Assembly: GCF_014635345.1 (NCBI RefSeq)
Contig: NZ_BMCU01000001.1
Span: 1,116,001-1,180,000 of the forward strand
Reading direction: 5' to 3'
DNA length: 64,000 nt
Source: Rhodococcoides trifolii
GTDB taxonomy: Bacteria; Actinomycetota; Actinomycetes; Mycobacteriales; Mycobacteriaceae
Shown: one piece after another, positions 12,988-63,357 of the stretch
Layout: each line of letters opens with the position of its first letter
How positions within the stretch are numbered: position 1 is the first letter of the stretch
Made by a program: the position numbers and the translations under genes
The notes under the pieces: model-generated
What the model was told of the DNA's origin: nothing
Databases searched by the model: none
The model's input: only the letters and a program-made list of their open reading frames with translations

Positions 12988-13693
12988 GCGCCTTCGGCAC
13001 ACGGGCGCGAAAAGGAGTGCGTGAGGACTCTTTTTCACGCCCGACCGGCGCAGCCACCACCGCCCACACTCCGATCGCGATGACGGCCAACACCTCGACC
13101 ACCACCAGCACGCGCTCGACCCACCCGAGGGTGATCAGGCGATACCACGGCGTGCCGGTCACGATCGATCCGACGATCGAGTAGATCAGCGGCAGAAACG
13201 CCACCGCGGACGCGATCCCGAGGCCGAACGTCCACTGCGCATACCGGCCCCACATCTCGTCTCGTCGCCACCGCCGGCTCAGCAGAATCGCGGCGAACGG
13301 AAGGGCCACGAAGGCAACGACACTCGCCAGTCGATGGATGTCACCACCGATGCTCTGCGGCTGCGACCAATCCTGCTTCGGCACCGCCACGACGACCACG
13401 AGTCCGATTGCCCACAGCCACATGGCAATCGACGCGCCGGACCGCCAGGTCGTGATGCCGCGGCGGACCAGCGGCGCGAGCACGAGAACGGATCCGACGG
13501 CCAGAGCGAGGACGCCGAGATTGAAGATCCACCGATCGGGACCGAGACCGTACTGACTGATGGTGCGGCGCAGTTCGTCCGCCGAGGCGAGGGCGTTGCG
13601 CACGTCGAGGCCGCCGACCATCACCACCGCCACCGCGAGAGAGGCCATGCCCGTGATGGCAGCGGGCGACGAGCGTCGGACTACGGAAGTCAT
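12959..13693 (-). CDS. DUF998-family membrane protein
   Basis: Integral membrane protein of 244 residues with about six hydrophobic segments. The pattern RRTISQYGLGPDRWIFNLGVL near residues 40-62, split by short loops, fits DUF998; the function of this family is not established. The last 30 or so residues (from about VGREKESSR) are hydrophilic and encoded mostly by the hairpin repeat at 12985-13057. The ancestral stop may therefore have been lost when the repeat arrived. It overlaps the convergent flavoprotein gene by 29 bases. Confidence 0.8.
   Translation of the reverse strand: MTSVVRRSSPAAITGMASLAVAVVMVGGLDVRNALASADELRRTISQYGLGPDRWIFNLGVLALAVGSVLVLAPLVRRGITTWRSGASIAMWLWAIGLVVVVAVPKQDWSQPQSIGGDIHRLASVVAFVALPFAAILLSRRWRRDEMWGRYAQWTFGLGIASAVAFLPLIYSIVGSIVTGTPWYRLITLGWVERVLVVVEVLAVIAIGVWAVVAAPVGREKESSRTPFRARVPKAPTESNTPAP
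12985..13057. repeat. Hairpin repeat, copy A (bidirectional terminator-like)
   Basis: A roughly 72-bp element also present at 48679-48750. Its core is a 17-bp stem, CGGGCG...GAGT pairing with ACTC...CGCCCG, around an eight-base loop, flanked by a shorter GGCGC/GCGCC-type outer pairing. It begins at the TAG stop of the upstream gene. A T-run lies in the right arm and an A-run in the left arm, so it could terminate transcripts from either side. Most of it is translated as the C-terminal tail of the convergent DUF998 gene. Confidence 0.8.
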
Positions 13694-18901: not shown

Positions 18902-19221
18902 CTCCCACCTGACTACTCAGACGCAGCCGACGGCCATCTGGTTCCCTTCGATCCGAGTGGATCCGTGGGACAGGCGGTCGGCGTCCCGATTGTGCAGGAT
19001 CTGTCTCGGATACCGAGACAATTCCTGCACTCCCGCCGATCCTCAAGCTTTTACCGCGCTCAGCACGGACTTTCCTTCACAACCGCCTGCTCGGCCAAGC
19101 CAACGGTCCGAATCCGTGCCCAACTTGCCTTCCCACGCGGAAATCCGCGCCAGTCTGCAACTCGAGCGGGAACGGTCGAAGCCCCAGCAACTCCGAAACC
19201 ACCCCCGGTACCCTCGACACA
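18902..19221. other. Divergent intergenic region with a large palindrome
   Basis: 320 bases between the DUF3558 lipoprotein (minus) and a phosphoesterase (plus). No gene is supported here. The one clear element is a 39-base near-perfect palindrome (18992-19030). Promoters for both flanking genes should lie here, but no convincing -35/-10 pair was seen. Confidence 0.7.
18992..19030. repeat. 39-base near-perfect palindrome
   Basis: Outer arms GTGCAGGA and TCCTGCAC and inner arms TGTCTCGG and CCGAGACA, around a three-base ATA centre, leave only two bases on each side unpaired. It could be a protein-binding operator or a strong cruciform/hairpin. Neither side has a T-run, so a terminator is less likely. 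Confidence 0.8.
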
Positions 19222-25155: not shown

Positions 25156-25204
25156 GAATCCGGTGCTGGGTGGTTCGAAAAGTGAACCGCTCAGCACCGA
25201 ATTC
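25156..25204. repeat. 49-bp palindromic repeat, left copy
   Basis: Imperfect palindrome from GAATCCGGTGC to GCACCGAATTC, with about 18 of 24 arm positions pairing. It is 42/49 identical to the copy at 26094-26142, and the two bracket one gene. A ribosome-binding site (25209-25214) and GTG (25220) follow almost immediately, so this copy is part of the gene's leader. Confidence 0.85.
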
Positions 25205-25219
25205 TGTCGAGGGAACCGT

Positions 25220-26119
25220 GTGGGTGGACTCAACGTCCAAACTGACATGTTCGAAGATCTGCTGGCGGCCCAGGACGGCGTTCTGACGCGTGATCAGGCC
25301 GAGGCGCACGGCGTTGGGAAGCAAGCAATCAATCGCCTGATTCGCAGCGGCCGCTGGGAGCGCCGCGGTCCGAACGTCTACTTCGCATGCGACCGCCCCT
25401 TCACCGACCGAGCTCGAATACGCTGCGCTGTATGAGCTTCCGGTGACCGGGCCACCGTAAGTGGACCGGCCGCGGCATTCTGGCTCGGTCTGGACACCGA
25501 TGCGCCCGACCTGGTCGACATCACGACCCCAAGGTCAGGACGCAGCCGACCGATTCCCGGCACCCGCATCCGGCGGCGTGAACTGTCGTACTCCGATGTC
25601 ATCGTTCGCAACGGGGTCCGGGTCACAGCGCTGCCCCTTACCGTTCTCGAATGCGCGGTCCGCCCGGGCGGCACCCGACTCATGGATGCCGCTCTTCAAC
25701 GGCACACCAGCCTGGGGGCGCTGAAAGCAGCGCACGCGCGGAATGCGGGGCGAACCGGCGCCGCCGCAGCCGGAGCGCTGCTCAGGTCGGCCGAGGGAGG
25801 TGCCCGATCCGAGGCGGAGCGTCTCTTCGCGCGGATCCTGACTGCGGGACAGTGCACCGGCTGGATCGCGAACTATCGGTGGGGGCCTTGTGTTCTCGAC
25901 TTTGCGTTCGTCGAGGAACGGCTCGCGATCGAGATCGACGGGTGGGCGTTCCACAGCGATCCGGGCGCGTTTCAGCGTGACCGGACCCGGCAGAACGCCA
26001 TCTCCAGCGACTGGACCGTGCTCCGGTACACCTGGGCGGATCTAACGGAGCGACCGCAGGAGGTATTGCGTGAAGTTCAGGCCGTCCTGAACCGAATCCG
26101 GTGCCGGGCGGTTCGATAA
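25220..26119 (+). pseudogene. AbiEi-type N-domain plus DUF559 (VSR-like) nuclease, nonsense-interrupted
   Basis: A continuous frame of about 299 codons broken by one in-frame TGA (25433-25435). Before the stop is an AbiEi antitoxin-like winged helix (FEDLLAAQDGVLTRDQAEAHG). After it the frame resumes with ASGDRATVSGPAAAFWLGL, as expected for the uninterrupted protein. The C-terminal DUF559 domain keeps the PD-(D/E)XK residues: SEAERLF, CVLDFAF, AIEIDGW and a following basic QRDRTRQN. GTG 25220 has GAGGGA five bases upstream; ATG 25247 is the alternative. The last nine codons and the TAA stop lie inside the right-hand palindrome. A sequencing error is possible, but no frameshift is involved. 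Confidence 0.82.
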
Positions 26120-26142
26120 TCGAACCGCTGAGCACCGGATTC
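26094..26142. repeat. 49-bp palindromic repeat, right copy
   Basis: Palindrome from GAATCCGGTGCC to GCACCGGATTC with 21 of 24 arm positions pairing around TTCGATAATCGAA. It provides the stop codon (TAA at its centre) of the AbiEi/DUF559 reading frame and would also make a strong hairpin downstream of it. Confidence 0.85.
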
Positions 26143-33062: not shown

Positions 33063-33143
33063 GAGCTCGGACCGAACCGGTCCCAGCGTCACGAGTGTGT
33101 GCCCCCTCACCAAGCGCCCCAAACGGCGTTCGAGATGAAACTT

Positions 33144-33182
33144 GGGTGCACTGCTGTGCGCTGACCGCACGTCGCAGCACCC
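33144..33182 (-). promoter_or_regulatory. Two-tier hairpin in the MAA upstream region
   Basis: Outer stem GGGTGC/GCACCC and inner stem GTGCG/CGCAC around a five-base loop, joined by six-base internal loops. On the minus strand it would form within the 5' leader of the HAD/MAA transcript if the promoter lies in the AT-richer stretch beyond. It is not a recognised riboswitch. Confidence 0.4.
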
Positions 33183-33329
33183 GAGTTTTCGAATTACACG
33201 CATGAAATTCGTTCCCTCACTTCATCTCTCGATTTCCACATTTCTTGCGGTCCGCCAACATCTGAGTCATGATCTTTCACAATCGTCACTTCTGCCACGG
33301 CAGTCACACGCGACACATGGGGAGATCGA

Positions 33330-48681: not shown

Positions 48682-48750
48682 GCGCTTCGCACACGGGTGT
48701 GAAAAAGAGTGCTGGAGGACTCCTTTTCACACCCGGGTGGCGCAGCCGCC
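48679..48750. repeat. Hairpin repeat, copy B (bidirectional terminator-like)
   Basis: Second copy of the element at 12985-13057. Core stem CGGGTGTG...GAGT pairs with ACTC...CACACCCG. Relative to copy A, the changes CG to TG on the left and CG to CA on the right preserve pairing. It lies between the convergent PRISE-like and aldo-keto reductase genes and begins at the TAG stop of the former, ending at the stop of the latter. Confidence 0.82.
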
Positions 48751-49803: not shown

Positions 49804-49845
49804 CGGAACATGGTTCCGATAACCAACGTACGGAACCATGTTCCG
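49804..49845. promoter_or_regulatory. Inverted pair of 15-bp operator sites
   Basis: CGGAACATGGTTCCG (49804-49818) and its exact reverse complement CGGAACCATGTTCCG (49831-49845), each itself nearly palindromic, lie 27 bp apart between the aldo-keto reductase and TetR genes. They fit two TetR dimers covering both promoters. Confidence 0.8.
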
Positions 49846-63313: not shown

Positions 63314-63357
63314 TGTCAGTTTTCTGACATACATCAATGTATGTCAGGATACTGACA
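63314..63357. promoter_or_regulatory. Four-half-site MarR operator
   Basis: TGTCAG-TTTT-CTGACA (63314-63329) and TGTCAG-GATA-CTGACA (63342-63357) repeat with a 28-bp period, and the inner half-sites form a larger palindrome CTGACATACAT-CA-ATGTATGTCAG. The last half-site overlaps the MarR start codon. This is the expected operator for the MarR/VOC pair, autoregulated. Confidence 0.82.

Follow-up and report, generated by a model that had tools for sequence, protein, structure and literature searches.

Nuclease genes related to one in the genome of Rhodococcoides trifolii lie, as a general arrangement, between two matching palindromes. The window, as we use the term, is the whole stretch of that genome that was analyzed (64,000 nucleotides of contig NZ_BMCU01000001.1), and it holds one such gene. 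We argue, with moderate confidence, that this gene, together with the palindromes on its two sides, represents a decayed unit of a kind that spreads itself much as REP/RAYT units do, with a different enzyme. Paired palindromes are present across many genera, and the two palindromes of one locus change together. Families of palindromes are dispersed through a genome, homology between loci is bounded by the unit, and one site is found in three states.

A broken nuclease gene and its enzyme

The left palindrome of the window locus is at 25156..25204 and the right one at 26094..26142. Neither is assigned to a strand. Both are 49 bp long and they are identical at 42 of the 49 bases, which leaves 7 differences. 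The first-pass annotation had described an AbiEi/DUF559 gene bracketed by such a pair, and that is what we find. RNA folding gives long stems, with about -33 kcal/mol for the left palindrome and about -39 kcal/mol for the right. Among all 50-base windows on the + strand of the 64 kb these rank 3rd and 2nd in fold energy.

The gene between them is on the + strand in the frame 25220-26119, and an in-frame TGA at 25433-25435 breaks it. The part before this codon (25247..25432) has an AbiEi_4 DNA-binding domain and the part after it (25436..26119, same frame) has a Vsr-like DUF559/MTES_1575 domain. DUF559 and AbiEi_4 score above the Pfam cut-offs and MTES_1575 slightly below. The gene is thus not intact, which corrects the earlier description. 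Its final codons and stop (26117-26119) are contained in the right palindrome, as had been claimed. The left palindrome does precede the gene, but more than a ribosome-binding site separates the two: a promoter-like motif, GGAACC-N16-CGTC, is there (25212..25237, + strand). The likely start of the gene is the ATG at 25247, and the motif ends 10 bases before it. GGAACC and CGTC with 16 or 17 bases between them are found at 40 of the 56 related loci described below and at 1 of 315 control positions. We take the motif to resemble an ECF-sigma promoter of a leaderless gene, and the window gene is probably leaderless.

The neighbors are a MauE/DoxX-like gene on the - strand and an SMP-30-like gene. 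The MauE match is below its cut-off and the DoxX-like label is taken from the annotation of blast matches. No AbiEii-type partner was seen among the four window neighbors scanned (MauE/DoxX-like, SMP-30-like, SIMPL and mycothiol-type). The right-hand neighbor gene is present in 27 of 37 genomes of the genus, the window genome included. In none of the 26 others was a DoxX-like or nuclease gene found in the 1.5 kb beside it, and these stretches gave no empty site of the window's own unit. When the window region was compared with plasmids by blastn, 2 records matched, and in both the match covers the DoxX-like gene.

It is worth considering the structure of the enzyme, for which we used the protein of a related locus, L057. 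Its model has a mean pLDDT of 88.6 and a pTM of 0.66. The only two Foldseek matches below 0.001 are to the AbiEi antitoxin 6y8q (E 9e-8 and 1.8e-5). Further down are the homing endonuclease I-Bth0305I (3r3p, E 3.8e-3, target TM 0.77), 3hrl (E 5.5e-3) and Vsr (1cw0, E 0.16). A profile of 39 sequences matches three of these structures in PDB: 3hrl at 5.9e-12, 3r3p at 2.4e-4 and 6y8q at 3.6e-3. The protein is an AbiEi-type (wHTH) part joined to a Vsr/homing-endonuclease-type nuclease domain like that of I-Bth0305I, where the assignment of the nuclease domain rests on the Foldseek E of 3.8e-3 plus the profile search. The nearly invariant residues are S185, E188, R189, D215, F218, E226, D228, G229, F232 and H233 in L057 numbering. 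The AbiEi models of PADLOC hit the L057 protein with E values as low as 7e-25, and the nuclease end of this protein is similar to Hhe (E 1e-4).

Paired palindromes at related loci

Searched as a protein against the genome collection, the nuclease part has matches at 58 loci. Nearly all are in actinobacteria, among them Rhodococcus, Mycobacterium/Mycolicibacterium, Gordonia, Tsukamurella and Actinomycetospora. Two loci (L090 and L101) have too little flank and were dropped, which leaves 56. The 150 bases to the left of each gene were compared with the 150 bases to its right, and a local direct-repeat score of at least 30 was counted as a pair. There are pairs at 32 of the 56 loci, against 2 of 313 shifted window pairs of equal spacing from the same loci. 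Palindromes that score at least 13 are on both sides at 21 of the 56, against 6 of 626 single control windows. The other 24 loci are under the pairing threshold, and some of these are one-sided (L059, L067 and L096 are examples). Among 332 genes called in 464 kb of the window genome by a simple length and GC3 rule, none reaches a repeat score of 25 and none has two-sided palindromes of 13.

The palindromes are about 40-60 bp long and their sequence varies between loci. The arms are GTGATTTGTGCACGATTTTCCGCG at L078, CGGTTACTGGCTCGTATC at L099 and ATTTCGGCGCGCT at L063. Across the 32 paired loci the spacing from center to center is 920-1040, with a median of 934. The stop codon is inside the right copy in 27 of them.

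A second, L016-like subfamily of nucleases behaves the same way. Of its 25 loci, which include L016 itself, 11 reach a score of at least 30, whereas 17 of 600 cross-locus pairs do so. Of those 17, 12 fall among L239, L242, L243 and L244, whose palindromes are much alike. Five of the original 30 loci were set aside: L245 and L254 are at a contig end, and the reading frames of L248, L251 and L260 were misjudged (their scores are 12, 20 and 14, and with them the count is 11 of 28). An earlier cross-locus control of 688 pairs had a highest score of 52, but it is less clean, with its top scores coming from loci of a common palindrome family. It must be noted that a palindrome control of 35 out of 108 would count against a mobile unit at face value. 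It is invalid, since its 1100-base shift reaches the opposite palindrome. Chance pairing was considered and rejected on the shifted windows, the ordinary genes and the cross-locus pairs. The palindromes are not placed at random with respect to DUF559 genes; the association is strong in both subfamilies.

The two palindromes of one locus change together. The left copy of each of the 32 paired loci was compared with its own right copy and with all copies of the 31 others, and in 24 cases its own right copy is the nearest. Another way to see this is to compare loci that are syntenic on both sides. There are 19 such pairs, which are not independent of each other. In 14 of them the resemblance is greater between the two copies of a locus than between orthologous copies, and in 5 it is the other way round. 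Four of the five reverse pairs are among L054, L055 and L056, and L068 with L070, where the syntenic sequence is about 85-95% identical. L061 and L064 are a concerted example. They are syntenic, the left copy is CTGACGAGCGCTGTGCGCACGTAACC in the one and CTAACCGGGGCTGTACCCCGGAAACC in the other, and each has a near-identical right copy.

Several families are present in a single genome. The window genome has 10 AbiEi_4 matches and 5 of these genes score at least 30, each with its own repeat: the window gene, L009 (63), L012 (37), L016 (38) and L018 (37). The pair at L011 is weak (15), and L014, L015 and L017 have none. L013 has a palindrome on its left; its frame ends early, which puts the right end outside the comparison. 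At L009 (G000:C7, 41.2 kb) the repeat is doubled, and each flank has it twice in tandem.

Lone palindromes and a site in three states

Palindromes of these families are also found away from any nuclease gene. In the window genome (G000, 5.29 Mb in 15 contigs) a pattern search locates three more places that share the outer arms of the window palindromes, and none has a nuclease homologue within its 3-kb locus. L006 (C1:926033) is 7 bases after the stop of the upstream ORF, L007 (C10:20194) is inside no ORF of at least 100 aa, and L008 (C1:1287387) adjoins the 3' end of a gene that looks like rpe by eye. In relatives, the rpe site of L008 yields no orthologous junction that can be used, since beyond the genome's own copies the matches are short or weak. 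The window family is absent from 40 other genomes searched with a tighter pattern at up to 3 mismatches, a pattern that recovers 3 of the 5 places in the window genome itself, so divergent copies elsewhere could escape it.

The L016 family, named for an AbiEi gene at G000:C4, 82.4 kb, is much larger. At up to 3 mismatches it has 33 distinct places in the window genome (29 and 28 strand hits, with 0 for the reversed-pattern control) and none in the 36 other genomes of the genus. L016-like nucleases are in 22 of the 37 genus genomes, the window genome included, and their other loci have other palindromes, often paired. Two of the 33 places are on either side of the L016 nuclease gene, and another two enclose a hydrolase-like gene. 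Of 20 loci examined in this family, two belong to the nuclease gene itself and the other 18, out of 31 lone places, were scored. All 18 are within 17 nt of the 3' end of a gene called by the length and GC3 rule, against 4% for random placement, and 3 of the 18 are inside an ORF called by that rule. Insertion may in itself account for part of this proximity, since there are stop codons close to the edges of the element.

The hydrolase-like gene deserves its own description. It is an ORF at 1570-2406 of L228 (the name is by eye), within a stretch at 1500-2440 that corresponds to about 671.2-672.2 kb of G000:C1. The L016-family palindromes on its two sides are 898 bp apart and the right one holds the stop codon of the ORF. 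The left one begins about 15 bases past the stop of a gene that looks by eye like a dihydrolipoyl dehydrogenase. It is possible that the hydrolase-like gene is a passenger.

Two lone palindromes of the L016 family are in the window, at 13002..13043 and 48690..48739, neither with a strand. Another at 18992..19030, also without a strand, is like the weak repeat beside the AbiEi gene L011 (GTGCAGGAT..TGTCTCG..CGAGACA..CCTGCAC), with a similarity score of 23 that makes this assignment weaker than the other two. Several structured places were seen besides these. A strong palindrome at 63314-63357, TGTCAGTTTTCTGACATACATCAATGTATGTCAGGATACTGACA, is outside the nuclease families assigned. The one at 49804-49845, CGGAACATGGTTCCG..CGGAACCATGTTCCG, is made of nested inverted repeats and has the look of an operator. 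The arms of a third at 33138-33188, AAACTTGGGTGCAC..GCAGCACCCGAGTTT, bear some likeness to the GGTGCA/TGCACC arms of nuclease palindromes in Rhodococcus. Elsewhere in the window genome L214 (9004-9135) and L201 (3687-3743) are strongly structured with common GGGGCACCCT-type arms, perhaps another dispersed inverted repeat.

Dispersal is seen in other genomes too. In genomes that we label R. fascians-type, one type of palindrome recurs: of the 13 genomes searched, 8 have 2-12 strand hits each and 5 (the window genome and four others) have none. The conservation within lone copies is partly imposed by the search pattern and is descriptive only. One lone palindrome is common to L134, L108, L126 and L132. 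L134 (1501-2000) has about 437 extra bases that start at the palindrome edge and include what by eye is a small glyoxalase-like gene, which is another rearrangement at a palindrome.

The homology between whole units follows their borders. The identity of L057 with L051, L054, L055 and L056 is 74-77% and spans the unit from its left palindrome to its right one; the comparisons with these four reported no matching flank.

The site of L057 exists in three states. In the filled state (L057 of G060, which is apparently the same as G014) a palindrome, the gene and a second palindrome follow each other, and both ends retain a whole palindrome. In the lone state (L119 of G053, with the same sequence as L136 of G007) one palindrome is at the same place, with flanks 90% and 89% identical to those of L057 over 1.5 kb each. 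The palindrome-free state is found in L137 (G009) and L143 (G011), where the junction reads ...GGTACCGATTCAG... Relative to L137, L057 has 977 extra bases between flanks that are 91% and 92% identical over 2.3 kb each. The flanks of L143 are 82% identical on the left over 2.3 kb and 91% on the right over 0.4 kb. A single palindrome is at this site in L138, L145, L146, L148, L149, L140 and L141 as well, and decayed remnants are in L142 and L144. Inspection of the junctions in 12 more distant genomes found no palindrome. No target-site duplication was recognized. Several of the lone copies have different left neighbors with the same right neighbor, and therefore the palindromes also mark points of rearrangement.

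A tree of the SMP-30 gene places G009 and G011 as sisters (100/99) and groups them with G014 and G016 (94/94). We infer that the palindrome at this site is old, that it was lost once in G009/G011, and that the nuclease gene was gained once. The palindrome-free site may be a deletion, since the two sisters are nested near the filled genome. One can also imagine a scenario where the gene was repeatedly lost by recombination between its repeats, and this is possible. Empty sites in close relatives had been named as something to look for; they exist for the related unit L057 in another strain (against L119 and L137), but not for the window's own unit. A phage or plasmid origin was tried as well: a tblastn search with the L057 protein gave no phage record and 2 plasmid records.

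Routes to the arrangement and what they imply

We argue that the following route is the best reading. The nuclease would recognize its own palindrome of about 50 bp, probably as a dimer, or else as a hairpin in single-stranded DNA, and would cut it. Repair against other copies could then spread lone palindromes near gene ends, and the same repair could equalize the two palindromes beside the nuclease gene. Now and then the whole palindrome-gene-palindrome unit would be copied into a lone palindrome. Binding, cutting and repair are inferred steps, and so is the order in which units and palindromes were gained or lost. The suggestion of a discrete mobile unit like REP/RAYT stands as far as the architecture goes, and a related unit has its empty sites. 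The window copy itself is broken and an empty site of its own was not found. It counts against a self-spreading unit that the hydrolase-like ORF of L228 is bracketed too, which makes this more than a trait of nuclease genes, and that 24 of the 56 loci stay under the pairing threshold.

Of the alternatives, regulation with no movement at all has the most in its favor. The palindromes could be two-way transcription terminators, or operators for AbiEi, at both ends of the gene. They would be alike through the binding of a common protein and would not move. The copies near 3' ends fit a terminator role too, and so do the stop codons within the right copies. The proteins also have an AbiEi-type DNA-binding part. 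However, the left copy precedes the gene, and the terminator scan has no hit at 25156-25204 or 26094-26142 (it gave 7 hits in 14 kb, with 7.0 expected). One lone copy (L108) comes directly after an ordinary T-tailed terminator-like hairpin. Regulation also does not explain the presence and absence of a whole unit, or why one genome has 33 places of the L016 family and 36 relatives have none. We consider this rival unlikely. It is less likely still that the nuclease is a defense gene, or a toxin-antitoxin-like orphan AbiEi, that controls itself via the palindromes, with the dispersed copies as decoys or leftovers. The PADLOC matches to AbiEi and the likeness to Hhe are what one would expect of such a gene, but no AbiEii-type partner adjoins the window gene, and the plasmid and phage counts for L057 are unlike those of typical transferable defense cargo.

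Instead, the palindromes could be MITE-like elements mobilized by some other transposase, with the nuclease gene as a passenger. The non-nuclease gene between L016-family copies speaks for this scenario. Y1 is the transposase family that was searched, and HUH Y1 transposases (PF01797) have no match in the window genome, against 5 positives in 14 control genomes. The association with the nuclease also spans many genera, where most paired loci have a palindrome of their own, which makes a foreign transposase quite improbable. The gene could also be compared with an integron-type cassette between attC sites, since it too is between imperfect palindromes that vary by host. The attC core pair is RYYYAAC..GTTRRRY. 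Searched in one orientation, it is absent from all 32 paired loci and from both window copies, and an integron has next to no chance of being the answer.

The self-spreading unit has the architecture of a REPtron. In the parts of PMC6006769 and PMC3116915 used here, a REPtron is a gene framed by palindromes, with dispersed palindromes, one family per enzyme and several families per genome. At our loci, too, the palindromes that frame an enzyme gene belong to one family (32 of 56 loci, compared with 2 of 313 controls). They also have lone dispersed copies (33 places for the L016 family, of which two are beside the nuclease gene, 3 lone places for the window family, and the type with 2-12 hits in 8 of 13 genomes) and several nuclease-palindrome families in one genome. 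The enzyme differs, as it is an AbiEi-wHTH with a Vsr-like nuclease and not an HUH Y1 transposase. So does the foot: at the one edge examined, only 3 of 32 right copies have GT[AG]G among their first 10 aligned bases. The palindromes here are also about 40-60 bp long and usually have the stop of the gene inside.

The nuclease domain, by profile and fold, leads to the EDxHD homing endonucleases. According to the portion of PMC3943268 we draw on, the target on which I-Bth0305I forms a dimer is nearly 60 bp long, a size comparable to the palindromes. Gene-free alleles at one site (L057 against L119 and L137, not the window's own) are a further likeness. I-Bth0305I is filed in PDB as a mobile intron protein, whereas the nuclease gene here is free-standing and fused to an AbiEi-type domain. 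In classical homing the target is destroyed, but a filled site here keeps two whole palindromes. The N-terminal part is like the AbiEi antitoxin of AbiE systems (6y8q) by fold and profile. The difference is that no AbiEii toxin gene adjoins the window gene and that a nuclease takes up the C-terminus instead. That C-terminal domain is like the MTES_1575/DUF559 nucleases of the Vsr type (PF18741, PF04480). In the sections of PMC3710099 cited here this domain is part of large HEPN-containing proteins, and those sections do not mention palindromes. The lack of attC core sites separates the loci from integron gene cassettes, and the lack of a hit for a stem with a T run separates the window palindromes from intrinsic terminators. 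Palindromes around AbiEi/DUF559 genes are not described among the matches listed from the open-licence literature, a set without preprints or subscription journals. The system falls outside both the REPtrons and the EDxHD homing endonucleases while working like both. If architecture is weighed above the enzyme it would be a variant of REPtron.

There is a broader proposal that we put forward tentatively, as it falls somewhat short of probable. The actinobacteria may have their own palindrome-spreading class, with many families of AbiEi-Vsr nucleases that would each cut their own palindrome. Repair would then copy the palindromes to other places and keep flanking copies alike, and the process would drive fast turnover of palindrome families and rearrangements where palindromes lie. 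The Actinobacteridae sampled in section 10 of PMC6006769, as far as that section goes, have only IS200-type subclass 1.1. If the proposal is true, this would be a second, independent solution to the role of REP/RAYT, in a group where REP-type transposases are reported absent by that part of PMC6006769. It would also give a role to a sizeable and unexplained group of actinobacterial AbiEi/DUF559 genes. It predicts that each nuclease recognizes its own palindrome and no other, and that palindromes cease their concerted change after the nuclease is lost. If the cutting is real, these genes would encode nucleases whose long palindromic targets differ from one enzyme to another.
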